From contig OY727098.1 of NCBI GenBank assembly GCA_963402885.1, positions 7,001,001-7,065,000 on the forward strand: DNA of 64,000 nt. The letters are read 5' to 3'. Shown piece by piece: positions 92-54,496 of this stretch. Below the pieces are notes generated by a model that made no database searches, was not told the origin of the DNA, and saw only the letters and a list, made by a program, of their open reading frames with translations. How positions within the stretch are numbered: the first letter of the stretch is position 1; every line of letters begins with the position of its first letter. A program made the translations under genes and the position numbers. This DNA is from Antedon bifida. Taxonomy: Eukaryota > Echinodermata > Crinoidea > Comatulida > Antedonidae.

Positions 92-244
92 CTGTTAAAC
101 ATTTCAGACCAGTATAGCCAGTTATACAGTCACATCCATATGGATCAGGCAGGCAGATTTGAGAACCTTTGCATTGGGCTTTGGTATCAACTCTAAATGT
201 ACATCGCCATTCACAATTAGGTAAAAGTCGATTACCACCACACG
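92..244 (-). CDS. Gene C exon 5: EGF-like 2 (Tie type)
   Basis: 153 nt, phase 1 to 1, acceptor AG at 245-246 and donor GTAATG at 86-91. Starts CGGNRLLPNC and ends GYTGLKCLT, with CLPDPYGC in the middle. The same exon is found in genes A and B. Confidence 0.85.
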
Positions 245-14696: not shown

Positions 14697-14836
14697 CTTC
14701 ACATGCGTTACATTGTTTAAACCTTCCGTGCATTATTGGTTACTACACGCACCAGTTGTCTTATCACAGGCAACATTGCAATGACAAATTGAAGTACAGT
14801 AATCATCATAGTAACCAATTGGACAGACTTCAGGAA
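14697..14836 (-). pseudogene. Gene B exon 8: EGF-like 4 with stop
   Basis: Acceptor TTATTGCAG, donor GTAAGT. Reads VPEVCPIGYYDDYCTSICHC...CSNQ then TAA. Gene A has ...CSNKEC at this place. Five extra nt relative to a phase-keeping exon make it out of frame downstream as well. Confidence 0.8.
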
Positions 14837-27845: not shown

Positions 27846-27923
27846 TTAAAAATTGGGATTTGCGTAAGTATCAAAACGTCCCAGATAGCTTGAAATGATA
27901 TCATAACAAAAAATGTATTGGTC
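27846..27923 (-). CDS. Gene A exon 32: end of PTP D2, stop
   Basis: 78 nt including TAA (27846-27848). [17 protein letters not shown], the final D2 helix; ends TYANPNF. Residues 1495-1519. Confidence 0.85.
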   Translation of the reverse strand, partial: DQYIFCYDIISSYLGRFDTYANPNF

Positions 27924-30900
27924 CTGAAAAAAAAAATAAAATTTTATTAAAAATTGGGTACAAACATAAAAAAAAGTATAGAAAGATAAAAAAGCTTAGT
28001 TTTATTATAATTACCATTGATAATTATAATGGTGTACTGGAATATTATTTTAGAGAGGTTATGTTAATTTTATCAAATTTATTTTGATGTATTAAAGAAT
28101 TTGAATTTGAATATTTCAGTGCAAGTTCATACTTGCTGGTATGCAACTAGATTACATGTTTCAAACAACATCCAATTTATGGTATTTTTTTTTTTTAATC
28201 GGTACTGTGCTGTAAGTATTTAATCTTGTAATATTATCATAAATTGAACTTACAATATTTTGAACTAGACCAGGTCTGTTCGTCCGCAACTTTTTAACCG
28301 TTTGAAAGACATCAATGATATTTTCCAGTTTCATTCTTTCAACAACTTCTACTACTGTGAGGAAGATGCCGGTCCTACCAACACCATTACTGCAAGAAAA
28401 AAAAAGTTTATTTCATTTAAACAATAAAATTTGCTTTTTTTTTGCACTTTTTAAGGAACTATATAAAAATTATTCTACCACAGTTACTGCATTGAACTAC
28501 ATTTTTTTAATTTAACCAGTTTATGTAATTATTTAGCAAAGTACCCCTTTTTTAATTGGGTAAGCAATAACATTGTTTATTGCAGTGATTGCCTAATAAA
28601 CTTCTACATTTAAACAAACTAAAGTGTACACTATTGCAGTAAAAAAACAAATGATATTGCAGTAGAATAAAACTGACATGGTCCCTAAATGTATTTTAAA
28701 AGCAACTGAAAAAATAAAAGATATTAAAGATTTCTTGTCCCTTTGACTAATTCCAAAAAAATAAAAAATAAAATAATTCAAAAAAAAGTGGGTCATTTTG
28801 AAGTATCATAATAGTTATTAACTTTCACCAAAAATTAGTCGAAAAAAAAATCATTTAACTGAAATACAGACGTTTTTTTGTTCAAAAAATAACTAACTCA
28901 ACCATGACGAGTTGTAAACAATCATAATTAGCATCATGCATAATGCATACTATTGGTTTCAAATCTTTGTTTACTTTCGCAAGAAATATAATCAAATTTA
29001 TTTACTTGTTAATTACATAAACTTGTTGTTTTTGGCTCGAATTTTCGACTTAAAGTGAATAACTTTAATATTACTTTGATATGGCAAGTAGAAATTTAGA
29101 ATATTTTGACCTTCATTTTTTGTGTTTCAAGGAACAATACATCTTTAAGAATTCATGTAAAAAATAGCAGTAGTACAGATTGGAAAACTTTGCTGTTTAT
29201 ATACATACAATAAACAACAAATGTACCTGAGGTCTGGACCAATTGACACCAACCCCCAGCCTCTCAAGTCTTACCCTCTTCCGTCTGCAGATGTTTGTTC
29301 TGCTCCATTGGATTGAAGTCTGGTACCAATTGATTTTTAAGAACAAGATACATACCTGCAATGAACAGCAATTGGATGGTTACCATGGTGATAGTCATGT
29401 TGGTTGTCGTCGACCAGCTCCAGCACCTCTAATAATGTCGTAGGATTTTCAGGAATGTCTTGGTCCGCTGACCATCCATGTACCTGGAACAGTTTGACTT
29501 TAGCAACGGCTTCCTGGTTAAAACAAATATTAAAAAAAGATACATTTGTAGTACTGTTCCATGTAATTAAAAAATGAAAAAAATGACACCTTAAATTTCC
29601 CAGCAATAATGCTCCAATAAGTAATGTGTAAATGACAGACAAGAACATCTGTAACAGTATATTATAGTTTCCTTAATAATAAGACAGATATTTTTTCAAC
29701 TCTCTTATCTTTGCTTTTTGCTTTTTAAATTATGTTATGCTATATTTTACATATAAGAGTAACATGATACGAAAAAATATATTATGTTGTCACAAGTTAC
29801 AAAATACAGCTACTATACAGAAACCATATATTAAGGGACATTTCGAATAGAGCTGACAAACTGTCCACTTAATAGGTATTTCCCCCTGAATTGAGGTTAG
29901 TCATAGTGTTAAACATACAGTGTGTTTTTCTTATTCATTTCACGAGAAAATGGCCCCTTAATAGGCGTGTCCAAAAGGAGGTGTTCTACTTTATATACAT
30001 TATATTCTAAAAGTTGTAAATTAACCAAAAAGCTTACCGGCTTGTTCTTGTTAGTGATGCTAAACTCTCTAATAGTAATATCTTTTTTAGAATTACTAGT
30101 TTTTAGTGTAACAACCAAAGGACCATATTTCTCGCTGGTACCTTCTTCATCCATCCAATACTTTGCATAAGACTATCAATTAAGAAAGAAAAAATAGTAG
30201 AAAACCCTTTTCAAAAAAAGTATGTTTAACCATGTAATACAAAGTTATTGGTTAAAGACATTTTTACTTTGAGAAAAAGAAATATCTAAAGAGATTCTTA
30301 CCGGATCATTTGAATCCATGTCATTGAGCATGACAACCGAACGAACGTTCCAGTCAAATATCAAACGCCACATATCTTCAACAGTGTCAGGTAAAGGCAT
30401 CTGAGTTGCTATAAACTTGTCTTTTTGTTTATATCCCTGCAATAATAAGATATTGGATTGCAACAACTACTTTAGACACAGGCGAAAGACTTGAATTGTG
30501 AGCTAGGCTTTGGAGTGAGATTGGACACCAAATGGAATATCAGTAACCCACCTCTAAAGTGTTATACAATTGTGGTATCATTTAGATGGACACCTTAGCC
30601 ACTAAGCAGGCATTAGCATTTTAAAGGTTCCAGATCATCAAGGTAACAGCCTGTTCTTTCGGAAACATCCCTGTTGGTTTCTTAAAGTGCACACAAGCTA
30701 GATATGTAAATTGGATTTCAAAGTCTTTATCTAATACAACTTATTCTACCACCAGAATTATGCCCAGGAGACAAAAATACTTTTCCCAAAACTTTCTCTG
30801 AAAATCCGAGAGAGGGCATCCCATTTTAGGGAGCATTATTATGAATATGGGCATCCTGTTTCATCTGGTCTGCGCTCACCCTCTGAATGAACTTTTCACC

Positions 30901-33900
30901 GTCTGTGTAGTCGAATGAATTAGACTATGGACTTTGCATGTCGATGTATGGTGTTCAATTCCCATGACCAACTTCTTTTTACTTTATAGTGAGAGAGATT
31001 ATTTAGAGGTAGTAGTTCGGCTATCCTTCATGTATCTTTCAGAGAAAGTCTTTGGGAACAAAGTGTACACGCCCAGGAGCACCTTGAGTGGCTGTATCCA
31101 TCGACATCTTCATGACCTATGACCCAAGATTAGGTAGTATATTGTAGTACCTGCATGGTTGACACCATAGTCTGTACTGACTATGTTGACACAGAGATAC
31201 AATCACTATTCTTTTCAATAGCACCAAGTAAAGGTAATCAACAGCCTAGTGTCAAATGGACATGCTAACCATCCCCACAATGACACAAATAATTTTCTTG
31301 AATTGGGCTTTCTTGTTTAGTTAGATTGGCCTTTCTAATTACCTATGCTTAGCCAACAAAACACAAGACTAGTAAATTAAATTAGTAATCAAACTAAAGT
31401 AAATCAACTCATTCTTACATCGACAAATGACGCGTTGATGTATTCATTTCCTCCAGAAGAACTCTCAGTGACCAGAAATGGACGGTTACGATCAACTGTA
31501 AAAAAAATAGTTACCATTTATAAATATTTTTTCTTTTACGATTGAAAAAAAATACAAAGCCAAATAAATAATGAGGCAATGGGATTAGTAGTTACACAAT
31601 TTAAATGTGATAAGTGATACTCTGAAAAGAAATATGCTGGTTTTTTTTTCTAGACTAGATCAGTAGCAATATATATATATTTTATGGAGAGAGAGAGTGT
31701 TAGAGACAACAAAAACCCCTGATGAGACATATACTAAAGTAAATTTTCAATTACAGCATTTCTTCATTTTGATTAGTATTCACACAGTATATATTTTTTA
31801 TAGCATTGAAGTATAATTTATTTTGGTGTTTTTTTAAATAAGTTCAAAGTTTAGCTTGTCAGTGGAAACCTTTTTTTGGAGACTCACTAAAAAGTATTTG
31901 ATAAAGCAGAAAATAAGAAGAAACTGCAAATACGAAAAGAATAAAATAAAGTTTTCCATATTGGCAGAGATAAAAGATAAATATATGAAATAAATAGAAC
32001 TAAAAAAAGTCATAAAAATAATGTATTTGAAAACAAAATATTATAATATAATAAATAATTATTTTTTTAAGTGGTCTTATTAAAATTAAAAATTTATATC
32101 AGATAAACAAATTTGTGTCGAAAAATGAACAGCTTTGTAAATTGTGAGCTGGGGAAAATAAAATGAGGAAATAAAATATTATTATATATTTTATTTCCTG
32201 CATTGTTTGACAGACATGGTTGGGATCTGATATCAAATTAAACATACTTTAATATTTAAAAACAAACAATACAAATTGTATTTTTGTATTTTCTAAATTT
32301 TAAAACAGTTAAAATTTGAAAAAAACATTGGACTTTTCCTTCATCACAGACTTGTGTCTGTTTGATATGTTATAGAATTACATCTATGTAATAAATATAA
32401 AATGTTATTGTCATTATGATTTTTTCAAATATTTTGTTCTCCGTTCTCAAGTATACAAAGACAGAAAAGGAAAGAAGAATTGTCAATACAACCACCAACA
32501 ACCCGCTACTTCCACCTTTAGATTATTAACATTATTATTTATAATTATTATACTGTATTTCGAGTTAAAATCATGATTGTGAGGCATTTGATAAATAGGC
32601 AACTGCCTTAAAATGACATGACATGTTTCTAGAAACTATTCTCATCATCAGAACAGAAAACAACCCCTAGAGTAGTTATATACCAATAGGACAGGTTGTA
32701 TGTAAATGAGGAAGTAATTTAAGCATGATAAACATCTGTATTTATATTTTGATATTATTATCTTGTATGATTCTATTTTTCAGCATGGTACACTGAAACT
32801 ACTGTAGATCATGTTAATACTGTAGTAATACTGTAGTAAACAATACTTTATTTACTATACTACTATATATATATATGTACTATTAAAATTAGCTAGACTA
32901 GATAATTGTCTATCACTAATAAATTTAATTAATTTACATGCTTGTTTCAACTGCTTGTTTGGAATATCTAAAAAACAATAATTGGCATATTAAAATTAGA
33001 AGCAACTGAAAATACAGCACAAAATTAGTAAATGGCTCACAGAAGAGAATTTGAATTCACACCAATAGTACAGTATAATTTTAAAACAAAATAATCACAG
33101 TGTAAAACGATGATCTCCAGTCACAAGTATCTAAAGAACAAATAACAATTGACATGAAATACTAATAAATGACAAATGATAACAAATAAAATATAAATAT
33201 TGTTGCTGTAAAAATAGTAAAATTTGAAAAAAGGAAAATAAATACATACATGTTAGTTACATAGGAAACACAGATTGACAGTAAAAAAAACCCCTGAAAA
33301 TGTTAAATTCGGCAACATCAGTTCAACGTCAAACTAAAAATATTATTGAAGGGTAAATTCAAACACATTTTGTTAACTTACTTGGTACAATGTTTGAAAC
33401 CCGGTTCTTGTGTTGGTTCTCTGGCAAATGTCCTGCCTTACAGTGATCAGCTGGAGGATATGGAGTTACAAGTTTTAGAATCTGAAATTAAATTCATAAT
33501 TACTTTACATTTACTTTGGAAAAAAAACCATACTCCACCCCAAAGTCAAAACAAATAGAATTAGAAACACATATATTCAGCTATCAGGTTGTATAATAGA
33601 GATTTCAAACACTAGTCCGCTAATTACTCATGTTTCTGTTACATTTCCCTGTTCATTTTTTTATTTAGTCTTGTTATTTATGTTATATTTATACTAACTC
33701 GAGTGTACTTAAGGACCCATATCTCATAGCTGTATATTTTTGCCGTTGTGACAATAAAGTTTTATCGTATCGTATCGTAAAGAGAATTAATTTATTTACT
33801 ATCCTTCTTAAAGGTGGCAAACACAAGAAGCTCTATATAAACAAAGTCTTAAGCTCTGTCTACACTATCAAACTTTATTTGACAAAAAAGTGTGATGCCT

Positions 33901-36900
33901 CAAATGTGGTAGTGAATTGTCATCATGTCCATATTTGGGCACATCACATTTTATTTTGTCAAATAAAGTTTGATAGTGTAGACAGAGCTTTAAACAACTC
34001 TTTGGGAGTTGTTCTTTTGTTATGGAAAAAAACATTTGACAGAATTGTTGATCGGTAACTGAAAATAACCACCAAACTCCATATTTGTGTTTTTGATATT
34101 GCAATTGTGATGTAACAAACCATGCTTTATTAAATGCACCTAATAAATCAAGTAAACAAATTTTAATTAGTTTTATCAACCAACCTCAAATTCTTCTTCT
34201 ATATAAGTCTTATCCGTCTGCGGAATAAGACGCTTCAATGTAGACAGACGAGTTTGGAAGTTACCAGTATTCAAAGCAGTATCTCCACAAAGACTGTACT
34301 CCAATAAGGCATCATAGATAAACACATATTGTTCCTAAAATACAAATACATTTCATATTATACACACATAGATACAATCATATACTAATGTGTAGTGTTG
34401 CTGCAGCATGGTGGCATGGTTGCCTTCCACTTGTAACCCACAACTGTCTCTACTTCACTCCCTAAGCCTCAAATGAGACTTAGTTTATAAGCGTGATACA
34501 GTTTATCTATTCTGTAATTGGCAAAAAGGAAAAATACATATACCACAGTCAATTTTAGTTATTTGATTTCTTTGTTTGCAGTATGTTATAATCTTGCATA
34601 CTAGTAGCACTAGCACTAAGGTAGCAAAACAGTATTCACTGTGTAAATTGTAGCTGTTTTAAAAATTTCAGGAATTGTTTTATATTATAAACATTTACAA
34701 CTTACAGGTGTTTGAACCATGTTGATTCGTTGGTCTCTTATGTTACGCACATAGTTGTAAACATCAACTTTTTGTTCTTTATCAATCATTTCCATCATAC
34801 TGTCAATGCAAATGAATGTTCCTGTTCTTCCAACGCCAGCACTAAAAAATGATGATAATTATTATGCATTTTACTTGCTACTTAAGTTTTACACATTTTC
34901 TGCTCAGAGAATAATCTCAGGAGCATATCAAAATCATAAAAACACAGCTTCTATAACACTATACTTTTTTTTCAATAGTGTCCTCCTATGCTTTAAATGT
35001 AAATATAAATGGGGGAATAACCTGCTACTTGTAGCCTACTGGGCTGAATTGCGCACAGGTGTGGACGACACATACCACAACTTTATACTCCCCTGAGGGA
35101 GCGAGTGCTGCCACCAAACGGCACCCGTTCGTTTACCCACAACGACAGGGGCTAAATGGACCAGTACACCAGTGTAACCCCTACTTTTCCAAAAGATGTA
35201 CTGGGTTCTTTAAAGTGCACACGCGAGCCAGATATACATAGTGGACCTCCAGTTTTAAGTCCTTAAATCTATGTTTTACCACCAGAACAATGGTCGAGGA
35301 GTGCCTTGAACTTGTGCCGATTGTATACTTATGGTTCGCGGCTCTCCCGCCTTAACAGCTCGGGCACTCGACTCAACTAGATGTCGGCTTTACTAATAAA
35401 AAAAAATAATTTGAATGTTGGAAACAATAAAAAGCACATATTTTTACCTGCAGTGAACAAGTGTTGGAGAGGAGTTGCTTTGGCTACTTTGTTTAATCTT
35501 CTTAACATAGTTGAGGGCAGCAGTGGCGTAAAGTGGTACACCCATGTCTGGCCAGGATATGAAATGGAACTGCTTGATGCGCCTAAAATCAACATCGCTG
35601 TCCTAAATAGAATAGATTGAATTTGTTTTATAATGGCAAAAACAAATATTAAATACAGAGAACATTTAATACATATAAATCTAGAGCATTTACAGTATTA
35701 GGAAATCTCATTCAGTTATCAAAGTGTAACAAATGTTATATTATAAGTTGTTATGATGAGAACTTTGATAAGATGGGAATGAATGGATGAAACATCTATA
35801 TCTAAAACAAAAACATATCAGGTAGATACAAACCTTCCAGACTTTTAAAGACCTAATCTTATAGTCTGCATAACTTTCTGTGACCTCTAAGAGAATACTG
35901 ATCTCTCCAAACTCAGCCACATGACCTCTGTTATCTGGCCAATACTTCTTGCATTTTTCCTGAAAATGTAAGAATGGCCAGTGTAATACTTTATGTATAC
36001 ACTAATACTTGAATGATACATATATTAGTTTAGCATAATATATTATAAAGAGGAATTTATAGGTGATTATAATCTGCCCAGCTATTACTCTAACCTACTG
36101 AGATTTGCTAACCCTATCCTCTGTTGACCAGCTAATATCAGTTGGTAATCATTTAATTGAAGTTCTATAATCATTCTCAAACTTTACATTTAATCACATA
36201 ATTACTGAGAAAGTAGGATAATTAACTCATAATCGTTGAGTAACTTTGGTTTTTGACAGGAAATCTAAATTCATACCTTGCCCGATTCAATAACATTAGA
36301 CAACATCACAATAGTTGTGACATTCTCTTGCCAAATCATACGCCAAAAGTCAATCAATGAAGCATTATTTGGTCCTGAAATCAGAAAAGAAAGAAATCAA
36401 GTTAAACATATGTGGTAAACTAAGATGTTTTCCTGATGAAACTCTCAATATATTTCTATTTTGTCATTTTTGTAGTAGCAAACACTTATACTGCTAAATT
36501 GCCAAGTCTTGATGGTATGTTCTAGTGCATTAACATGGTGAAGCAGAGTTTGGAAGTTAATATAACTTACCTTGACTTGCGATGTAAAAATTATCTCTCT
36601 TGTATCCCTAGATAAACAAACAAAAGCAAAACAAGTTTGTATAGAACAATGGTAACGATAAGGTCTAATGAAAATTGTTGTGTTCCAGAAGCAGTCTTTT
36701 CCCCTCTATTCAGCTGATTACATGCATCTTAGTAGTCTTGCTAAAAATATCTAGAGTGAAAAGTGGCTCCTCCAAATAATGTTACTTACATGTACATGGC
36801 ATGCATTAATATATCCTGATTCTGGGTCATCTTCATATTCCTCCAGTACTACTCTTGAATGATCATCTTTAATATGAATAAAGTAAAACAAATTAAAAGT

Positions 36901-45900: not shown

Positions 45901-48900
45901 CTGTTTTTAAGTTCAGGACTAATATATACAAGACAAGATCATTTAACTGCTACATAATACAAAGAAACAATAGATAAAAGTCAATCTCTACTATAAACAA
46001 TGAATGTTCATGAGCTGAATAAGAAGAAAACTTTATAAAGTTTACCAGTCTATTATTCATTCATGATTGAATGTCATATCTAGAGTGAAGCATAGTTTAG
46101 TTAACTGTGACAACAGTTTTTTAAAACTTTCATTTTTGTTTTATATCACACCTACTGTTAAAAAATATACCTTTATTCAATTAATGCTGGTTCTATCTTT
46201 AATCAAAATATCGAAGGCTGTAACATGCCTTTTGAAAAGGAGGCGATCAAATTTGATCTGATGAGTAAAGCAGTTATCACCGATGTATACAACTGGTTAA
46301 ATTTTTATCACGCATTATTATTAGGCTACTGTGTTGCACACAATTCTCAAATTGTTTAATAGCAACAATAGTGTTGAAAAGAATAATACATAGCATGTGA
46401 TATAAAACCATCCAGTAAAATGATACATTTAAATGTGTTATTATAATTAACGAAAACAAAATTCTTACTAAACAGATCAACTGTATGGGTACGAGGTGTT
46501 ATTAAAGAATCCTTTGAAATACTAAATGTGTACACAACTCCCATATTTGCTACTGTCGAAAATGAAACTGTGGTGTGTGTTGTAGATTGTGTACGTCCAG
46601 TTTCAGTAACTGATTCAGTCCCAGCTTGTAAAATTATAGCCACATCTGTCATATCTCCAACAATGTCACATTGAAACGTTGATGTCTGTCCAGGATTTAC
46701 TTTAACATTGCTTGTTGAAATGATTCCTAAACAAATATAAGATGAGAGTGTGAATGTGTAGTAAAAAAAATATCCCATTATATATTTATTTTGAATTTAC
46801 CCCACTCCACCCTCTCCATCTGCAACAACAAAATGCATTGAATAATATGCTTTATAGGTGTCACACATTTAAAGCTAAAATGTTCATGTAATAATTTTGT
46901 ATATTTACCTATGTGCCCATTTTTTAAAATTCAATTTCGATGGCACTAATAATAAATAATTAAAACAAGACTTTTGAACAATTTTAACATTCTCATCTTT
47001 TAATGTTTGCTTCCTTCAAAAAAAAATTGTGATCAATTTCATAGAGTAGTGATTGAAAAGATTGACGACAAGCAATTACATATACTAGCAAGTATCCGCC
47101 CCAGAGCGGGTTTCAAATGTTAATCTTCTGCTTAAAGATTAGACCATTGGGACTTTCATGGTATTGTTCAAACCCGATTGGATGGGTGACTCTTTAACAC
47201 TCTTGGCATGGTACGGCGAACAGCATTAGTCTTCCGTTGTATTGCACGCATACCAGAAATCAAATTGATACACCCTCATCTTTCATTATATTCATTCACA
47301 AAGCGGGATCTCTGAAGAGATACTTTTATATAAACACAACAGGCAAAGAACATTAATTCTAAACCGCCAGATGATATACTCAAACTTAATTAATTAATTT
47401 GAAACGATAAAGATGAGGAAATCTGTGAGAATGAGAAAAAGTCGCCCCAACAAAGATATATTTTTCAGTTCTTTGTAATTGATTGTCGTCTTGTTACAAA
47501 AATAAAAAAATTAAATTCAGCCTTCTTTTTCTTCACTTACCTGTAGTACAAGAGTTTGGCAGCCAGTAATCATTGCATCCACCATTGCATCCACTGTCCT
47601 GATTACAGAAAGTTAAATCACAGTTGCAAGTCGATTCACACATACTGCCATATTTTCCTGATTCACATTCTATAATTAATAGAAAAATATAAAAAGATGA
47701 TGTTCTATATTTCAGCCCATAATTGTGTTGATAAATTAATAAAGTATAAGTCCACATGAAATGTAATTCTTAAAAATGGTCAAGTAGATTTGTACTAGTA
47801 GTTTTTGACAAACATATTTGTTTTTGTGTGTATAATTTCTTGTAATAGAAATAATTTGAATTTTGTGATTTCAAGAGAATTGCAAAGTAAAATCACTGAG
47901 CTGTTAATGAGGCCTTCTTTGGTACAAACATTTATTATTAATTAACATTAACATTAATTAAGTAAGTTAATTAATTAACTTACTTTTACAGTCGTATCCT
48001 TCAGCACATTCTTTGTTACTACAGACACCGGTCATCTTATCACAAGCAACATTGTCCTTGCAATGGCAAATGGAAGTACAACTACCATCAAAGTAACCAA
48101 CTGGACACACTTCAGGAACTATAGAGAGAACAAACTGGATTTTATAATGTTATAACAATCATTAATAGCACTGTTTAAAATATGCAAGTCTAGATTAATT
48201 TTTAAATAAAATAATGGATTGTAATTCATTACTAGATTTTGTTGTTTAGTGATAATGTGCATGATTCTTCGAAATTACAAAAAAAGTGTCTGAAGAATAA
48301 GAAAGAGTGAAGTCTACAAACATATACATATGTTAACATGAAATTATTTTTTTAAAAATACAATCAAACTAAAAACACCACTGGTGTGACAGATTTCACT
48401 TGTTACACCTCTAACTGGCAAAGTTGTATTTATACTGACAGATGATAAATGGCATAGATATTCAAAATATTGACCCTCAGTCTCACATACGACTGGGTGT
48501 CTCAGAAATGTTATATCTTATTATAATTTATTTCAATAGTGTACTAAAAAAAAATGCACAAAATTGATTTCAAAATCTTAAAATTTGTGTAGTGTGTTGC
48601 ACACACACACCTGTGCGCACAGCCCGCAGTAAGTTCTTCATACCTTTTGTCAAAAATTAGAAATTTGATGGAAATTTTTGAAAAAAATATGCCTATTTTA
48701 TAATCTATTATAGCTCCTCAGGATCAACAGTGACCCACCATTTGTTCAACTGATAAGTTGTAGATATGACTGTATGTAAAATGTTATCTACCAGATGCTG
48801 TGACTTCATCATACATGTATGGCCATTCACATATTTAAAATAGGATTTTTTCTCTTTTCTACTATTTAAATCAATGTTGCGGATAATCTAACTTGTCTGA

Positions 48901-51900
48901 AGTGACGAGTTCACATCTAGTTTTTAATAGTCTAAATTTACTGTACCTTGACAATTACTTCCAGACCATCCAGCAGCACATCCTCCAGATGTACACTCTC
49001 CAGTATACTGGTTACACTCTCCTGAGTTGCAGTGACATACTTGACTGCAACCGGCACCAAATTTACCAGTTGCACAGTCTGGATGTAATTTTGTATATAT
49101 TTTATTTATTATTCATTATCATAGGTTTACCTTTAATAGTTCACCTTTTGTTTGGGTATTACTGATTTCTAACCATTCAATTAATTAGTATTTCATATAG
49201 TCATAAAATTTTAATAATAGAATTCATTTATTTATAAGGAAAAATAATTCACTATGGAAAAATTACACACAAACGATTTTATGTATTCTGGTGTGTCTGC
49301 AACACTTGTTTGGCCCTAATGAATTGTTGTGGCACGTACTCCAAAAATTACAGTGATATAAAAATTACTCAACATTTAAAATTGTAATCTCATTGCACAT
49401 CAAAAGATATGTTTTCAATATTCCCTTTTCCAAATGTCTGTAAATGTAACAATTTTCCAAAGATGGTTTTATCTGCCCCCTCCAGCAGTTTGCCTATTAG
49501 TAGTAGTGCTCTTTTTATCGTTTTCAGTACTTTTTTTAGGACATTAAAGCTTCTTTTAAGGTTCCTTTCATTTTTATCTAGCATTTTCTTTTATCCTCTG
49601 TATACATTTTAATGATGAATTAAATTGAAAAAAAGTACCTGTTAAACATTTCAGACCAGTATAGCCAGTTATACACTCACACCCGTATGGATCAGGCAGG
49701 CAGATTTGAGTACCTTGGCATTGGTCTTTGGGATCATTCGCATTATTTGTACACCGATTGTCACAATTAAATCCAAAACGATTACCACCACACGCTAAAT
49801 AAACAATAAAAATAAATCGAATAACATGTAATGTGTAATTAACCAATCAAATGGCAGGAAGCAGCCGTGTTATAATACTGTAGTACATAAATCACATATG
49901 TTCTCAGTTTATATTAGCATCTACTTTGATAATTTAAAATCAAAAATTAACTATTGCCAAAAGCATCACATGATGACTTTAGTGCACTCTTGAAGTTAGA
50001 AGATTGTTTACATCAATGTTAACAGTAACCATAGTAGTTTCAAGTTTTTTACAGCCATTACATTACACAGTGACAAACTAGCATATTATAAAACTTGGTA
50101 TGATTTTCCTTAGAGATACTGTATCTACTTAATAAAACAATTTGTTACATTTTGAATTAAACATGCGAGTTGGGTATTAAATTACCTATTGTAAAGGCCA
50201 AAATGTTCGCGTGCCCTTTATTTTCGCGACTTTCGCAATTGAACTGCGATCGCGAAAATAAAGATTGCACAAAAATCGCGAAATCCCCAACAATGTTGTT
50301 TACAGTAAATCAGGACCTAGGATAGGCTTAGTAACTAAGTTAGTTAGTTAGCTAGGCCTAGGTAGGCTTAATATGGAAAAAATGTATATAAAATAGTTAC
50401 GATAAACTTCAAATGTTGTATTCTTTGAAACATTTACGATCCCCGATTATTTATTGTTTGTTCAGATGTAATTAAACATTTAAAAAATTGCAACTGACCG
50501 AAAATGCTAGGCCCTATTCAGCCTGCGCCTTGCTCAAAACAATGATGATATTCCTCCTCTCACTCAGCGATCGAGAAGCGTCGCGCCGCCGTGGAAGGAT
50601 GGATAATGTTAGAATTGGAATAAAAAAGCATACAACATTTCTTAGGTTAATTTTTATGAAATGTATAGTGTACTTGCTTTACGAATCCTTTGTCCACTAA
50701 ATCATAAAAAATAAATTGTAATGTGTCTATAAAGTAATTATTCTACATGCGTAGTTTGTGGTAGCAAATGGTAAAAATACCATCACCATGCTCTCCAGCG
50801 ATCCATCCGACCGGGCGTCACTGCGTCCATTTGAAACAAACAATAATTTGGTAGAGTACATTAATTAAGGGGATGTTCACTATCTAAGAGCCTATTAAAC
50901 ATGTGCCTCGCCCACTGTGTAGCCAAAACATTTATTTACATCCCTAAATTTATAATCACATATTCTGTAATTTTACTGACGCTATTCAATTGTTGTTTGA
51001 TGTTCATCGCAGAGGTGAAATATATTCCCAATCTGGTTCATTTCTGTACTTACTAGTCATACAGTTATTTCCACCAAAACCTGGAGGGCAAATACAGTCA
51101 CCCGTCTTATCATCACATACACCACCATTGTAACAATTATTACAAATACCTGTACATCCAGGACCCCAACGACCGTTTGTGCATTCTATATGATAGAAAA
51201 AGTAGTTGATTATTTATTATTTATTAATCTATAAACTTTTGCATAGCCTAGACTAAGACTCGTCTCCCAGCCTATTGTGCTACCGGTTTTCCACATTTTC
51301 TACAGGATTACAAAAATATCTGAATTTTGATGTATGTGGTTTTCTGCAATCAAATATAACAAAAAGTCTTACACACAAGCATACTTATGATATTTAAGCC
51401 ATCTGCTGCCATAATTTTTTTCTCAACCGAATGGCTTGTGACTTCACATACTGCACACCATACCTCTTGATAATAGATAGAGGGCGCTGTTGGCCTAAAA
51501 AACACCACTTCCCGTTGTTTTAACTTCAGATGTTGGCATGTATGTAAATCTGGAATTGCCCATTGAACTCATTACATTGCATAATATTTATAACTGCACT
51601 AAACTTTAATTAGCAGTGAATGAATGTTGGAAAGACCACTAACCTCTAACTATCAGTTCAATGAATGAATGTTTGAATTGATTTCTATCAGTATCAAAAT
51701 GAAGTTCATACATTCCAGCATTTTCAAGTTCAACATTTTCAAATGTTATGCTTGGTTGGTCCTGATAGTTATCTAGCCTATCACCATCCTTTCTCCAGAT
51801 TAAATTGATACCATCAGGATTACTTTCTACATCAAATGATACAGTGACCCTATCTCCTACTGAAGCTGTGATACTTGTTTTTTGATTTGATGGTATTATA

Positions 51901-54496
51901 ACGGCTGAAAATAGTATAAATAGAATAAACTTTAACATTCTATGATATATTATATAAACTAGTCAGTTTGTACATTAGCAGAATGTAATGAACACAGTAA
52001 TAATAAAAACTTTATCTGTATTGGTTCTTTTGCAGTTCATTACAAGCTATTCTTGCTAAAAAAAGTGTAGTTTCACAATATTTATGTAAAGTGGCCATAA
52101 TTATGAAAGTTTTCAAATGCAGTTATACTGTACAAGCGAATGGGTCTACAAAGTTTGATACTTCATACACCTGCCAACTGTCACACATAATGCGTGAGTC
52201 TCACGCATGAGGGCCGGTTTTTTATGCCTCACGCATACATCTATAGCTATTTCTCATGCATTCATAAAAATTATTCAGAAAAACATTATTATGAAATTAA
52301 CTTGCCTATTTTGAAGGGAAAATAGCCTAGGACTACATTTTATTTAAGTAATTTGACCATAATTAACCAAGGCCTATGTTTATTTGTATTTTATGGTTGA
52401 GGTAGTACAGGAAAGCCAAACTCAATTCGGCGAAAAATTAAACATAGAGGGCTTATTTCATGATTATTTTGAGTTATTATAACATAGAGGGTGCTATATA
52501 CAATTTTAATTTATGTCTCACGCATTGGCCACTGAAAAAGTTGGTATAACTTCATTGTAAATATTTTTTTATTAAATAATTGTTTTTTCAACTTTATATT
52601 TTTTCTTTTGATGTTCAATGGTTTTTATTTTCTACTTTTCGAGTTATATCTAGGCAAGCAAGACACAGTAACATTACTTAACCAATAACATAATAATTGA
52701 ATACAATATGTGATATCAATTTAAAGATGATATATAAAGGAAATAATAATATTTGATAATATTATTAATACATGAGGATAAGATTGGTCATATTCTATCG
52801 GTTTGTATCATAATGAACAAGTCCACACTGATGTACAGTACCATAAACTTTCAAGTACAATTTGTGCATGAATCAAAGATTATATATGTGCTGGTCAATT
52901 TCTGGCAATTAATTTCTAGAAGTAACTTCTATTTCTAATAAAGTTGAGGGCATCAAAGGTAAAAATAATATTGTATTGGACGTACTGTATATTCTCTTCT
53001 ACTTTAAAAAAACAACAAAACATATACTTACAATCCTGAACGGTTTGAGTATCAACAATTGTAGTGTACACAATAGTTTCTTCACCATTAACAACACCTT
53101 TACAGTAATAAGCACCAAACGCATTTTCACTTCCAATAGGAATACCTAATATGCTAGCATAGGCTTGTTTATGAGGTGTCCCAGGCTGTTCTGCAGTAGA
53201 ATCAGAGCTCGCTATCTTAAATGCTCTTCCAAATGTTACTGTCGTACCAGGTTCACTTGGGTAGCATTGGAACTGTCCATAATTAGCAAAAGGTGACCGA
53301 GTGTTAAAAACTGTTAAATACGTACCAGCTGCAAAACCTACAATAAAATAAATATTTAACAATTTTATTAGGGTTACATAATTAATGAAGAAAATTTGAG
53401 GATTTTGTGCAACACAAAGTTGTTGATTGATTCTCATTCAAAACCCAACCTGTGGTATGCACAGTCGTAACTGTTCTACTCTGCATCTAATTACCTAGCC
53501 CTCTGTTTTTGTAATGGCCTAGCCCTTTGGTTTTTTTAATGGCCAGCCCCCTGGTTTTTTAATGGTCTAGCCCTCTGGCCTATTATATTATATAAGCCTT
53601 TGGAATTGATTAAAAGTGCAAACTGTGTATTAATGAACAATATAAGTTTACTTCACGATAAAACAAATAATGAATATTTATTGAAGGGGAAGAATATTTC
53701 ATGAGTTGGAATATTTACTGGAGCCTCATTAAAAACAGAATAGATTAAATGGATAAAAATGCCATCAACTCTTGCCATAAGTTTATTTATTTTTGTTTAA
53801 TTTTTAAATAAAGTATGTTGCAATATATAAAAATTAAACATGTTAATTAAACAATTTAATCAGTACCTCCATGATTCAATAGTAAAATCAATGTTAGTTT
53901 TTCCAATTTTCAACTGAAACCATTAGTAAGCCTATCACCATCCTTTCTCAAGATTAGTTCTTCATTATCAGGATTACTTTATAATTTACTCACCATTGTC
54001 TTTATTGTGTAATAACGACCAATGATAAACATTATATTGCACTGCATGAATAGTGAAAACTTCAAGAAAATGTAGTAGATAAAATACATACAGAGAGGGT
54101 GTCATAGTATGGGTGTTTGTTTTGTTGTTTGTTTGTGGTGGATGGGTGATTGTGTGTCCTGCAGAGATTAACTGATATTGTTAGCCTGGTTCAACCAAAA
54201 AGAGGTCATTAACTATGTTGTTACAATTCTGGAGAGGCCTATTGTTATTTGGGATCTGGAACTTCCCTGTTCAGAATCCAGGAATTGATCGTACAGCACT
54301 TGAGTCTCAGCTAGGACTAGTATAACTAGTATAGTAGTAGTCAGACCTACACAACACCTATAATCGTTCAAGGAAAAATAAAAACAACATAAAAGATATA
54401 AAACTGAAAAATAGTTAATACATTACCAAATTTTAAAAGTAGTCCAATGGAAGCGAACTGAATTAGAACCCGGAAATAAATTAAACAATTCGCCAT
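27846..54496 (-). CDS. Gene A: receptor tyrosine phosphatase with Tie-type ectodomain (32 exons)
   Basis: A type I membrane protein of 1519 residues, complete in the window. Order: signal peptide (1-23), Ig1 (24-122), Ig2 (123-209), five EGF-like (210-437), Ig3 (438-523), three FN3 (524-821), membrane helix (831-853), basic stop-transfer RRRKN, juxtamembrane to about 900, PTP D1 (about 930-1215) and PTP D2 (about 1235-1512). D1 has YDHSRVVL, SQGP, WPDMGVP (D1119), [10 protein letters not shown] (C1151) and a QRINMVQT Q-loop, so it should hydrolyse phosphotyrosine. D2 keeps [10 protein letters not shown] (C1448) but has W-S-A for W-P-D, so it is probably inactive or weak. Ig-Ig-EGF-Ig-FN3x3 is the Tie/Tek ectodomain order, and EGF 1-2 match Tie EGFs in motif. 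The total of 4560 nt with all phases agreeing supports the exon set; exon borders are by eye, without transcript data. Confidence 0.9.
28254..28389 (-). CDS. Gene A exon 31: PTP D2 P-loop
   Basis: 136 nt, phase 2 to 0. [10 protein letters not shown] completes the signature begun at exon 30 (HC); then [12 protein letters not shown], where D1 has [10 protein letters not shown]. Residues 1449-1494. Confidence 0.9.
29356..29513 (-). CDS. Gene A exon 30: PTP D2, altered WPD loop
   Basis: 158 nt, phase 0 to 2. [11 protein letters not shown] stands where active domains have WPD; ends PIAVHC with the D2 Cys (1448). Confidence 0.9.
30038..30172 (-). CDS. Gene A exon 29: PTP D2 core
   Basis: 135 nt, phase 0. 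[17 protein letters not shown] and [11 protein letters not shown]. Residues 1352-1396. Confidence 0.88.
30302..30436 (-). CDS. Gene A exon 28: PTP D2 core
   Basis: 135 nt, phase 0. [20 protein letters not shown] corresponds to the 'Y-IATQGPL...FWRM' motif. Residues 1307-1351. Confidence 0.9.
30590..31010. repeat. Interspersed repeat, copy 1 (gene A intron)
   Basis: 'tcttaaagtgcacacaagc', 'ctaccaccagaa' and a tail with 'gttcaattccc' and 'gagagagattatttagagg'; the first part is shared with 35050-35375 and the last with the insert at 18763-19117. Confidence 0.55.
31419..31495 (-). CDS. Gene A exon 27: PTP D2 start
   Basis: 77 nt, phase 1 to 0. IDRNRPFL and [10 protein letters not shown] (YINAS motif). 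Residues 1281-1306. Confidence 0.9.
31496..33381 (-). other. Gene A intron 26
   Basis: 1.9 kb AT-rich intron; no gene or complete element seen. A TA microsatellite near 32863-32876. Confidence 0.5.
33382..33481 (-). CDS. Gene A exon 26: D1-D2 link and D2 entry
   Basis: 100 nt, phase 0 to 1. [14 protein letters not shown], then [10 protein letters not shown], the KNR motif that opens D2. Residues 1248-1280. Confidence 0.88.
33849..33993. mobile_element. TTAA-flanked MITE, copy 1
   Basis: TTAA at 33849-33852 and 33990-33993. Ends 'gctctgtctacactatcaaa' and its inverse; 137 bp between. The TTAA target fits a piggyBac-type MITE. Confidence 0.85.
34185..34334 (-). CDS. Gene A exon 25: end of PTP D1
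   Basis: 150 nt, phase 0. [17 protein letters not shown], the D1 closing helix, then a linker ending IEEEFE. Residues 1198-1247. Confidence 0.9.
34706..34841 (-). CDS. Gene A exon 24: PTP D1 P-loop
   Basis: 136 nt, phase 2 to 0. [14 protein letters not shown] and [11 protein letters not shown] (Q-loop). Residues 1152-1197. Confidence 0.92.
35050..35375. repeat. Interspersed repeat, copy 2 (gene A intron)
   Basis: 'actcccctgagggagcgag', 'tttaaagtgcacacgcgag' and 'ttttaccaccagaac'. Related to 30590-30800. Confidence 0.55.
35448..35602 (-). CDS. Gene A exon 23: PTP D1 WPD loop and catalytic Cys
   Basis: 155 nt, phase 0 to 2. [15 protein letters not shown], then PTLVHC. D1119 is the general acid and C1151 the nucleophile by family analogy. 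Confidence 0.92.
35834..35959 (-). CDS. Gene A exon 22: PTP D1 core
   Basis: 126 nt, phase 0. [20 protein letters not shown], the 'KCxxYWP' motif. Donor GTTTGT is unusual. Residues 1059-1100. Confidence 0.9.
36277..36374 (-). CDS. Gene A exon 21: PTP D1 core
   Basis: 98 nt, phase 1 to 0. [16 protein letters not shown] and VIMLSN-type strand [13 protein letters not shown]. Residues 1026-1058. Confidence 0.9.
36571..36607 (-). CDS. Gene A exon 20: PTP D1 core, 37-nt exon
   Basis: [12 protein letters not shown], phase 0 to 1; joins exon 21 to give SQGP. Very short but bounded by good splice sites. Confidence 0.88.
36790..36866 (-). CDS. Gene A exon 19: PTP D1 phosphotyrosine loop
   Basis: 77 nt, phase 1 to 0. 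[11 protein letters not shown] and GYINACH. Residues 988-1013. Confidence 0.92.
37175..37262 (-). CDS. Gene A exon 18: PTP D1 entry
   Basis: 88 nt, phase 0 to 1. [14 protein letters not shown] and [12 protein letters not shown] (KNR motif). Residues 959-987. Confidence 0.9.
37410..37538. mobile_element. TTAA-flanked MITE, copy 2
   Basis: TTAA at 37410-37413 and 37535-37538; same ends as copy 1 (gtctacactatcaaac / gatagtgtagacagagct). Confidence 0.85.
37992..38239 (-). CDS. Gene A exon 17: juxtamembrane and start of D1
   Basis: 248 nt, phase 1 to 0. Polar juxtamembrane, then [17 protein letters not shown], the block before D1 in receptor phosphatases, ending LQHEYG. Residues 876-958. Confidence 0.88.
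38822..38886 (-). CDS. Gene A exon 16: stop-transfer and juxtamembrane
   Basis: 65 nt, phase 2 to 1. [17 protein letters not shown]. Residues 854-875. Confidence 0.8.
39252..39348 (-). CDS. Gene A exon 15: transmembrane helix
   Basis: 97 nt, phase 1 to 2. Gly/Ser-rich lead (DDGGGSST) then 22 hydrophobic residues from VIIAVVS to AVFIV. Confidence 0.88.
39406..39461. repeat. Perfect 22-bp hairpin
   Basis: 'ttatgttttaaaattcag' and on to 39427, then 12 nt, then its exact reverse complement 39440-39461. Confidence 0.9.
39930..40090 (-). repeat. Degenerate tRNA-bearing repeat unit in gene A intron
   Basis: 'gatatactgaaagtgaatga', 'taaagatgaggaaatctgtg', 'ccaccctaaccgagattc' and 'gcttgatatgc' follow the 16.8-19.5 kb family. 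Confidence 0.7.
40788..40814. repeat. 27-bp palindrome
   Basis: 'accatggaggta', tta, 'tacctccatggt': 12-bp perfect arms with a 3-nt loop. Confidence 0.9.
41513..41550. repeat. ATTG tetranucleotide microsatellite
   Basis: About nine copies of 'attg/gatt' with one interruption. Confidence 0.9.
41773..41933. mobile_element. Foldback element, 69-bp arms
   Basis: Left arm 41773-41841 and right arm 41865-41933 are reverse complements with three mismatches; 23-nt loop. Ends 'tttgcagtacacca'. No coding capacity. Confidence 0.85.
41996..42068 (-). CDS. Gene A exon 14: FN3 domain 3, second half
   Basis: 73 nt, phase 0 to 1. [15 protein letters not shown], the usual FN3 G-strand, then a Ser/Gln stalk. 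Residues 798-821. Confidence 0.85.
42610..43160. mobile_element. Inverted-repeat element, 'cctttcacaccaaaa' ends
   Basis: 'acacctttcacaccaaaag' at left and 'ttttggtgtgaaaggggt' at right, each followed inward by 'actctg(ga)' blocks. About 550 bp, no frame. It ends about 20 bp from gene A exon 13. Confidence 0.65.
43182..43402 (-). CDS. Gene A exon 13: FN3 domain 3, first half
   Basis: 221 nt, phase 1 to 0. [38 protein letters not shown]. Residues 724-797. Confidence 0.85.
43786..44002 (-). CDS. Gene A exon 12: FN3 domain 2, second half
   Basis: 217 nt, phase 0 to 1. [31 protein letters not shown], an FN3 core with the TxYxxxVxA pattern. Residues 652-723. Confidence 0.88.
44733..44812 (-). 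CDS. Gene A exon 11: FN3 domain 2, first half
   Basis: 80 nt, phase 1 to 0. [21 protein letters not shown]. Residues 625-651. Confidence 0.82.
45422..45724 (-). CDS. Gene A exon 10: FN3 domain 1
   Basis: 303 nt, phase 1 to 1, a whole domain in one exon. [46 protein letters not shown]. Residues 524-624. Confidence 0.9.
46469..46726 (-). CDS. Gene A exon 9: Ig-like domain 3
   Basis: 258 nt, phase 1 to 1. [20 protein letters not shown], then [11 protein letters not shown]; one canonical Cys, its partner is not conserved. Position after the EGFs matches Tie Ig3. Residues 438-523. Confidence 0.78.
47095..47450 (-). repeat. tRNA-bearing repeat unit, one full period
   Basis: Begins in a decayed tRNA-like part, runs through 'gtacggcgaacag', 'gcgggatctctgaagagata', 'aaccgcc' and 'gaaacgataaagatgagg' and ends at 'gtcgcccca', the start of the next tRNA-like part. 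It shows the unit is about 350-400 bp and permuted head to tail. Confidence 0.75.
47541..47669 (-). CDS. Gene A exon 8: EGF-like 5
   Basis: 129 nt, phase 1 to 1. [31 protein letters not shown]. Residues 395-437. Confidence 0.85.
47984..48118 (-). CDS. Gene A exon 7: EGF-like 4
   Basis: 135 nt, phase 1 to 1. [33 protein letters not shown]; the Glu here is the stop codon in gene B. Residues 350-394. Confidence 0.88.
48640..48870. repeat. Reverse copy of the 'gatgacgtca' repeat
   Basis: 'atagctcctcaggatcaac', 'tatctaccagatgctgtgac' and 'atggccattcacata' are the reverse complement of blocks at 22690-23320. Confidence 0.6.
48947..49078 (-). CDS. Gene A exon 6: EGF-like 3
   Basis: 132 nt, phase 1 to 1. 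[37 protein letters not shown]. Residues 306-349. Confidence 0.9.
49639..49794 (-). CDS. Gene A exon 5: EGF-like 2 (Tie type)
   Basis: 156 nt, phase 1 to 1. [36 protein letters not shown]. Residues 254-305. Confidence 0.92.
50195..50300. repeat. Hairpin with 'ttttcgcga' arms
   Basis: 'ctttattttcgcga' (50216-50229) faces its exact complement at 50250-50263, with further 'cgcgaaa' copies around it. Confidence 0.8.
51054..51185 (-). CDS. Gene A exon 4: EGF-like 1 (Tie type)
   Basis: 132 nt, phase 1 to 1. [37 protein letters not shown]. Residues 210-253. Confidence 0.92.
51644..51904 (-). CDS. Gene A exon 3: Ig-like domain 2
   Basis: 261 nt, phase 1 to 1. [30 protein letters not shown]; three codons shorter than in B and C and without the Ig disulphide. 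Residues 123-209. Confidence 0.88.
51905..53031 (-). other. Gene A intron 2
   Basis: 1.1 kb. Short repeats 'tctcacgcat' around 52196-52260 and 52515; no gene. Confidence 0.5.
53032..53328 (-). CDS. Gene A exon 2: Ig-like domain 1
   Basis: 297 nt, phase 1 to 1. [38 protein letters not shown]. Residues 24-122. Frame open upstream of the acceptor to 53437. Confidence 0.9.
53494..53580. repeat. Tandem repeat, unit about 29 bp
   Basis: Three to four copies of 'ctagccctctggttttttaa' + 'tgg' in gene A intron 1. Confidence 0.85.
53928..53985 (-). pseudogene. Relic of an Ig2 exon (middle part)
   Basis: 'gcctatcaccatcctttctc' and 'attagttcttcattatcagg' then 'attactt' match the Ig2 exon (1096-1155) nearly base for base, alone in gene A intron 1 and on the wrong side of Ig1. 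No splice sites remain. Confidence 0.85.
54427..54496 (-). CDS. Gene A exon 1: start codon and signal peptide
   Basis: 70 nt, ATG at 54494-54496, donor [26 protein letters not shown]; ends in phase 1 like all ectodomain exons. Homologous to the gene C first exon. Confidence 0.78.

Follow-up and report, generated by a model that had tools for sequence, protein, structure and literature searches.

A receptor tyrosine phosphatase with a Tie-like ectodomain in the crinoid Antedon bifida

In teaching, receptor kinases are kept apart from receptor phosphatases, as two families whose outer parts are unrelated. A 64,000-nucleotide stretch of the Antedon bifida genome (hereafter the window), which sits on a 28.2-Mb contig in a genome of 316 Mb, raises the question of whether a single gene can carry the outer part of a Tie receptor kinase on the tail of a receptor tyrosine phosphatase (RPTP) and, if so, how such a gene arose. 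A first-pass annotation of the window had described a gene of this kind (here gene 1) and explained it as a kinase-to-phosphatase swap through which a Tie-type ligand could directly switch on dephosphorylation. The 32-exon rebuild presented here, together with its agreement with Pfam, confirms at the level of predicted sequence that the described gene, a Tie-type ectodomain joined to an RPTP tail, is present. We consider that it very probably encodes a type I membrane receptor tyrosine phosphatase with a Tie-homologous ectodomain and a tandem RPTP tail that is of R2B type (kappa/mu/rho) or close to it. Gene 1 thus appears real and well supported, both as a gene and as a family, and seems to have been misread as a lone swap.

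Gene model and domain architecture

We rebuilt the exons without an exon list from the first-pass annotation, by independent exon chaining and manual refinement in which doubtful junctions were corrected from splice sites. Gene 1 runs on the minus strand from an ATG at 54496 to a stop at 27846, in 32 exons (Table 1) with compatible phase at each of 31 junctions, GT..AG at all 31 introns, and a single open frame of 1522 codons. Its domain order is signal peptide, Ig, Ig, five EGF, Ig, three FN3, membrane helix, and the PTP domains D1 and D2; the earlier model stands as to this order and the agreement of all 31 phases, but not as to its length of 1519 codons. Splice-site reading showed the short exons that the automatic chain placed at 51494, 44239, 42598, 31116 and 30902, as well as its first exon, to be false, and restored Ig3, the first part of FN3-2, EGF2 and EGF3, which the chain had missed or truncated. 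Pfam, run on near-final pieces of gene 1 (minus the signal peptide and the last residues of Ig3), found fn3 and two Y_phosphatase stretches (E 5.5e-154), while I-set was weak, at 21.6 bits against a cut-off of 23.7. MAM (PF00629) was absent from the Pfam list at E <=10, a range in which the program's filters discard most matches above ~0.1. In hydropathy, the six strongest windows of 19 residues all begin at residues 833-838, between the ectodomain and PTP halves. A short dispersed repeat occupies an intron of gene 1 (~47137-47460) and recurs in several stretches around a neighboring head-only copy (copy 2; 14.9-19.5 kb).

Table 1. Exons of gene 1 and neighboring Tie-headed features, in window coordinates
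Feature	Content	Coordinates	Strand
Exon 1	Start codon and signal peptide (23 residues)	54427..54496	-
Exon 2	Ig1	53032..53337	-
Exon 3	Ig2, corresponding in position to the ligand-binding domain of Tie2; no conserved angiopoietin loop	51644..51904	-
Exon 4	EGF1, Tie-like	51054..51185	-
Exon 5	EGF2 with CLPDPYGC, Tie-like	49639..49794	-
Exon 6	EGF3	48947..49078	-
Exon 7	EGF4	47984..48118	-
Exon 8	EGF5	47541..47669	-
Exon 9	Ig3	46469..46726	-
Exon 10	FN3-1; 11-residue motif resembling Tie kinases and some RPTP mu/kappa	45422..45724	-
Exon 11	FN3-2, first part	44733..44812	-
Exon 12	FN3-2, second part	43786..44002	-
Exon 13	FN3-3, first part	43182..43402	-
Exon 14	FN3-3, second part	41996..42068	-
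Exon 15	Membrane helix (hydropathy)	39252..39348	-
Exon 16	Juxtamembrane	38822..38886	-
Exon 17	Juxtamembrane and start of PTP D1	37992..38239	-
Exon 18	D1 (KNRF loop)	37175..37262	-
Exon 19	D1	36790..36866	-
Exon 20	D1	36571..36607	-
Exon 21	D1	36277..36374	-
Exon 22	D1	35834..35959	-
Exon 23	D1 with WPD loop	35448..35602	-
Exon 24	D1 catalytic loop (10 residues, joined from exon 23) and start of Q loop	34706..34841	-
Exon 25	D1 end, D2 start	34185..34334	-
Exon 26	D2	33382..33481	-
Exon 27	D2	31419..31495	-
Exon 28	D2	30302..30436	-
Exon 29	D2	30038..30172	-
Exon 30	D2, WSADQD replaces WPD	29356..29513	-
Exon 31	D2 loop (10 residues, joined from exon 30)	28254..28389	-
Exon 32	C-terminus and stop	27846..27923	-
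Copy 2	Head-only cassette Ig1, Ig2, EGF1-EGF4, in-frame stop in EGF4	14703..22137	-
Gene 2	Second tandem Tie-headed RPTP (part in window)	93..10845	-

Searched separately, the head leads to Tie2 and the tail to tandem RPTPs. Residues 95-353 of gene 1 form one 259-residue alignment with the human Tie2 structure 2gy5 (E 7.2e-44), spanning the end of Ig1, Ig2 and on through EGF3 with CLPDPYGC in register, and the best match other than Tie2 reaches E 9.8e-5 (EGF proteins); the earlier claim that the ectodomain is Tie-like in both order and sequence is upheld. Tie1 and Tie2 (TEK) share with gene 1 the order Ig-Ig-EGF-Ig-FN3x3, homology over the end of Ig1, Ig2, EGF1-3 and the FN3 block, and the CLPDPYGC of EGF2. 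They differ in having three EGF repeats and a kinase where gene 1 has five EGF repeats and two PTP domains; gene 1 lacks the angiopoietin-binding motif FIHSVPRHE, and its head falls outside the Tie-kinase groups in our tree. We count the sea urchin SpTie1/2 (Stevens 2010) with them in this comparison.

The stalk is less specific to Tie. Titin ranks top among matches to the FN3 block, and RPTP mu (E 6.6e-16) scores above the FN3 of Tie2 (E 6.1e-7), with RPTP delta and Dscam intermediate between these two. By a loose pattern, the GEGG-type motif seen in FN3-1 of gene 1 occurs in 26 of the 42 proteins examined, among them all three vertebrate Tie kinases and two of four vertebrate R2B phosphatases, and also in one molluscan phosphatase, in amphioxus and in many echinoderm and hemichordate members. 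From these scores and this distribution, the stalk and tail of gene 1 may share more history with the R2B phosphatases than its head does.

In the tail, the catalytic motifs of D1 are intact (the WPD loop, the 10-residue catalytic loop and VQTPEQY), and the D2 loop is present with WSADQD in place of WPD. Among the best 60 of 242 structure matches, the best two-domain chain was tandem RPTP alpha (E 5e-149, 501 bits), and no two-domain R2B chain was found. Against structures of D1 only, gene 1 scores highest with RPTP kappa, T and mu (304, 300 and 288 bits), followed by alpha, epsilon and gamma (255, 253 and 225 bits); the alignment also gives KNRF where RPTP alpha has KNRY, which we count against the explanation preferred here. 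A regular expression for the membrane-proximal domain missed members, and a profile was used instead; it gave no match in gene 1, compared with 112-128 bits in the three vertebrate R2B controls. Of 62 Tie-headed PTP chains, 60 retain HCX5R and 59 retain WPD or WAD in the first PTP domain detected. Given the motifs and scores of D1, and a D2 without WPD, an active D1 and a regulatory D2 are expected in gene 1.

The R2B phosphatases (PTPRM, PTPRK, PTPRT, PTPRU) thus resemble gene 1 in their tandem PTP domains with an active-type D1 and a degenerate D2, in having the nearest D1 scores and, in some members, in the GEGG motif of FN3-1, while gene 1 has neither MAM nor membrane-proximal domain and bears a Tie head in their place. 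VE-PTP (PTPRB), the phosphatase acting on Tie2 in vertebrates (PMC10815196), is a different kind of protein: by published descriptions it is of R3 type, with FN3 repeats and one PTP domain, in contrast to the Ig/EGF/FN3 ectodomain and tandem PTP of gene 1. The same descriptions bear out the earlier statement that VE-PTP opposes vertebrate Tie2 with an ectodomain of another kind.

Ligand binding, adhesion and mechanism

In Tie2, residues F161-E169 of Ig2 bind angiopoietin (PMC8294587). The whole motif occurs in none of the 95 head rows that we aligned to Tie2; one sturgeon row comes closest, vertebrate Tie1 rows differ too, and the Antedon mediterranea predicted protein P0001 has no letters there. 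In gene 1 the loop is replaced and shorter than in Tie2. Because the motif is missing, the proposal that a Tie-type ligand directly switches on dephosphorylation loses its support, and a conventional angiopoietin is unlikely to bind the gene 1 receptor as it binds Tie2.

RPTP mu and kappa bind the same or another protein on neighboring cells, and homophilic R2B binding requires MAM-Ig. It is possible, though less likely than not, that gene 1 is likewise an adhesion-type receptor: head and stalk would bind either their own kind or a different protein on adjacent cells, and the phosphatase would be kept at contacts instead of being switched by a soluble ligand. The nearness of its D1 scores to R2B phosphatases and the GEGG motif that FN3-1 shares with some RPTP mu/kappa are in keeping with this, as is the divergence from P0001: compared with the A. 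bifida assembly, P0001 is 63-91% identical from Ig2 to FN3-1, 97% in FN3-2, 88% in FN3-3 and 96-99% from the membrane exon to D2, and a head diverging more than the tail is expectable of a partner-specific or self-recognising surface. Against it, neither a MAM nor a membrane-proximal domain was found in gene 1.

We hypothesize that gene 1 most likely works through an active D1 whose clustering or localisation depends on the head. The head would engage a soluble or cell-bound partner, this engagement would alter the clustering or position of the receptor, and D1 would then dephosphorylate nearby substrates under regulation by D2. More speculatively, substrates or rivals might include the Tie kinases encoded on the same chromosome, and a kinase and a phosphatase with related heads would thereby set opposite outputs.

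Relatives, neighbors and the origin of gene 1

Three protein searches were considered (the best 120 of 238, of 5698 and, with the head of a spider protein as query, of 282 proteins). The best relatives of gene 1 are Antedon mediterranea proteins, followed by those of urchins, sea cucumbers, sea stars, a brittle star and hemichordates, with amphioxus members also among the matches, and the spider-head search added more spiders, ticks and one more amphioxus protein. Predicted Tie-headed phosphatases are found, then, in all five echinoderm classes, hemichordates, amphioxus and chelicerates. By head profile, at least 241 of the 336 collected sequences carry a full Tie head, the tail being a PTP in 63, a kinase in 148 and neither in 30, counts that depend on the matches listed (best 120 per search) and include many isoforms. 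Among the matches listed, the membrane-proximal domain is present in 27 of the headed phosphatases, absent from 36 (including gene 1), and present in 2 of the headed kinases, both sea-star models.

These relatives are known mostly from predicted gene models, many of them taken from a single contig per species, and false joins are a risk; in lancelet gene models false fusions are known (PMC4967905). Three headed phosphatases (P0252, P0253 and P0254) are encoded in single frames of 5,226, 5,604 and 5,223 nt on contigs of 6,186, 5,772 and 5,502 nt, long frames as expected of transcripts, which these contigs probably are; P0253 sits among the arthropod rows of the head tree described below. Two Lytechinus pictus proteins named 'receptor-type tyrosine-protein phosphatase mu-like' (P0007, P0010) match gene 1 in head, type of stalk and tail, and fall in the same groups as gene 1 in both trees. 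We recognised no published description of Tie-headed phosphatases in the open-licence literature, and an earlier description is possible; a 2006 survey of sea urchin phosphatases is said to have named FN3-bearing urchin RPTPs. A further A. mediterranea protein, P0003, is Tie-headed with repeated GEGG-type FN3 units, and neither kinase nor PTP was found in it. A Tie-2-like kinase and an RPTP F-like protein are reported in a 2026 coelomocyte proteome of Asterias rubens (PMC13409769).

For the head tree, 95 of the 241 headed sequences were used (Tie-type heads only, no EGF outgroup, unrooted), with vertebrate Tie copies and isoforms thinned by hand. Among phosphatases it took in 35 of the 36 that lack the membrane-proximal domain and 22 of the 27 that have it; among kinases, 20 of the 146 that lack it and both that have it; and, of the 30 tail-less sequences, 16. 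An extended tree of 97 rows adds two kinases from the A. bifida genome itself. Support is weak in the deep parts: of the head tree's 94 inner branches, 23 fall below 80 and are drawn open. The careful tree places gene 1 among 32 echinoderm rows that group at 89/76, a group also starred in the quick tree; 18 of these rows are phosphatases, 7 are kinases, each from Patiria, and 7 have neither tail. Inside this group the five crinoid rows, gene 1 included, hold together at 96/95. Vertebrate, urchin, hemichordate and crinoid Tie kinases all lie apart from the 32 rows. The D1 tree was built from 80 of 81 chosen rows (P0230, without a full D1, was dropped) and had no R2A, R4 or R5 references; there gene 1 is one of 21 rows that group at 93/96 and come from crinoids, urchins, sea cucumbers, sea stars and brittle stars, four of the 21 being models without a detected head. 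The five vertebrate R2B rows form their own branch in this tree, and gene 1 is among invertebrate rows. By these trees, gene 1 groups with Tie-headed phosphatases of all five echinoderm classes that have no membrane-proximal domain, and those of hemichordates, amphioxus and chelicerates are more distant.

At least two Tie kinases of A. bifida, with Tie head, FN3 and kinase exons, are encoded on the same contig as the window, at 13.23-13.25 and 4.04-4.05 Mb; kinase exons at 24.34 and 13.21 Mb have no head within the 40 kb examined. In the 97-row tree the heads of these two kinases fall with those of Tie kinases from urchins and hemichordates (99/87). A clade made up of crinoids alone is rejected, if not overwhelmingly (AU p 0.03). 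Gene 1 therefore probably did not come from a recent swap with the crinoid's own Tie. That a crinoid-lineage Tie kinase exchanged its kinase for an RPTP tail, leaving a Tie ligand to switch on dephosphorylation, would suit the Tie-like stalk (Ig and three FN3) without the RPTP membrane-proximal domain, and single swaps of a similar sort probably happened elsewhere in the family. Yet all five echinoderm classes have phosphatases of this form, which group firmly by D1 and less firmly by head, crinoid Tie kinase heads go with those of other ambulacrarians, and the angiopoietin loop is missing from gene 1; together with the modest rejection of a crinoid-only clade, these make such an origin very unlikely. 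The first-pass reading survives as to the Tie-type ectodomain and its join to an RPTP tail, but in a tree built from Tie-type heads only gene 1 lies outside the Tie-kinase groups, and the swap as its origin is not supported.

The neighborhood of gene 1 contains further Tie-headed copies (Table 1). The splice signals of copy 2 look intact by eye, but tblastn gave no match to an FN3, membrane or PTP exon between it and the next copy, and blastn none to a signal-peptide exon. It may be a pseudogene or, if a signal-peptide exon exists, a soluble decoy. Gene 2 has its signal peptide at 10845, Ig1 at 2016, Ig2 at 1228, EGF1 at 513 and EGF2 at 242, and continues from EGF3 to D2 beyond the window, down to window coordinate -16277, in the same order as gene 1, with no tblastn match for a membrane exon. 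Its D1 reads AGVGSTG, with the catalytic Arg replaced by Ser, and its Q loop has YTP for QTP; the same Arg-to-Ser change and YTP occur in its A. mediterranea counterpart P0002, and D1 of gene 2 is likely dead. Genes 1 and 2 are 90% identical in FN3-1, and 71% and 56% in the compared parts of FN3-2 and FN3-3. The tail of P0001 is 99% like that of gene 1, yet its EGF3-EGF5 and Ig3 are nearer gene 2 (91% against 63% in EGF5), a mosaic that would fit exchange of head exons between tandem copies, and the same process could swap tails. Retrotransposon-like frames with a BEL/Pao-type look (translation by eye) lie on the plus strand at 4147-8569, between the signal-peptide and Ig1 exons of gene 2. Further fragments, which by eye resemble reverse transcriptase and endonuclease, lie on the minus strand at 2467-3015 and 17742-18797.

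Across the genome, 78 Tie-EGF1-type exons were counted from 144 matches; the count excludes rows of EGF2 or EGF3 type, long rows in one frame on C1 and an additional EGF1-like row at C11 23502785. Within 40 kb downstream on the same strand, 42 of the 78 have a PTP exon, one a kinase exon and 35 neither, compared with a downstream PTP exon at 187 of 20,000 random positions on contig C11 alone; 150 of 159 PTP rows and 72 of 135 kinase rows entered this count, and, by eye, none of the kinase rows left out represents another gene in the 40 kb downstream of a counted head. Large arrays of such exons occur on C11 (23.26-23.53 and 27.1-27.3 Mb), C10 (6.4-6.8, 11.0-11.1 and 26.3-26.4 Mb) and C8 (13.1-13.2 and 33.7 Mb), many of them followed by PTP exons; in those at C11 23.26-23.37 Mb and C8 33.7 Mb no PTP exon was found within 40 kb.

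Head-only cassettes near gene 1, and the 2.65-kb intron between FN3-3 and the membrane exon, could also mean that two neighboring genes, one with the Tie-like ectodomain exons and one with the PTP exons, were wrongly joined. This is highly improbable: phases agree along the whole of gene 1, the strongest hydropathy windows sit between its two halves, and gene 2 repeats the exon order from Ig1 to D2 (its membrane exon being unmatched by tblastn). Moreover, head and PTP form a single chain in the A. mediterranea proteins P0001, P0009 and P0122, as they do in urchin, holothurian, ophiuroid and sea-star models; P0001, whose model begins within Ig2 and has no Ig1, runs from EGF1 through D2 in the order of gene 1 and is 99% identical to it over residues 930-1522. 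Convergence among EGF repeats is scarcely credible as the source of the Tie likeness, since, although EGF repeats of other proteins also score in head searches (e.g. P0247, P0248), a single 259-residue alignment at E 7e-44 with CLPDPYGC in register stands against 9.8e-5 for the next EGF proteins.

Exchange of kinase and phosphatase tails

If gene 1 is not a lone swap, the trees suggest a broader history. Forcing the 22 kinase rows together against the 57 phosphatase rows costs 559 log units (p-AU 3e-66). Kinase and phosphatase labels change 7 times on the 95-row head tree and 8 times on the 97-row tree; without the single models P0035, P0044 and P0061 there are 5 changes, without amphioxus as well 3, and without arthropods as well 2. 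The Tie-headed family appears to be old, its outer part exchanged between kinases and phosphatases more than once.

The sea stars provide most of the individual cases. Nine sea-star kinases form one clade in the kinase tree (100/98), and one of them, P0025, is nearest in the PDB to Tie2, with 267 bits as against 225 for Ret; an EGFR-labelled chain at 319 bits ranks above Tie2 but has no passing stretch. In the head tree, seven Patiria kinase heads lie beside and around the Acanthaster phosphatase P0035, the kinase P0044 adjoins the phosphatase P0041 (100/88), and the kinase P0061 adjoins P0134/P0137/P0141 (100/99). The Asterias amurensis models P0041 and P0044 are 81.5% identical over 1711 aligned ectodomain columns up to the membrane, beyond which P0041 is a PTP and P0044 a kinase. 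Both cysteines of CLPDPYGC are lost in all seven Patiria kinases, in the tail-less P0004 and in P0035, a rare shared loss that supports a common head. Because the neighboring crinoid, urchin, sea cucumber and brittle-star rows are phosphatases or tail-less, phosphatase to kinase would be the simpler direction in sea stars. Amphioxus kinase and phosphatase heads also cluster (100/100), and the amphioxus kinase P0054 scores 276 bits with FGFR1 and 279 with Tie2. P0035, P0044 and P0061 are single predicted models, and tandem arrays invite false fusion in echinoderms also; the exchanges are therefore firmer as a tree pattern, where they seem well supported, than case by case. Within each of Patiria miniata, Asterias amurensis and Ptychodera flava, Tie-headed kinase and phosphatase models lie on equal-sized contigs and so are probably on one chromosome.

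We tentatively suggest that the Tie head is an old exchangeable head that was present on phosphatases in the bilaterian ancestor, in view of members in chelicerates, amphioxus, hemichordates and echinoderms, and whose tails have since been swapped repeatedly. With similar reserve, the sea stars may have placed one Tie-class kinase clade on three heads, two of them known from single models. No vertebrate phosphatase with a Tie head was among the matches listed, so vertebrates may, just as tentatively, have kept only the kinase, and echinoderm enzymes with related heads could compete for one ligand. If this is true, the echinoderm kinase and phosphatase would be a built-in version of the opposition between Tie2 and VE-PTP. 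One outer part carrying either enzyme would directly show the rewiring of a signalling input to the opposite output, and a Tie-head family would put the origin of the blood-vessel Tie receptors in a new light. One question that this opens to testing is whether, within a single animal, a kinase and a phosphatase whose heads are related share a ligand.
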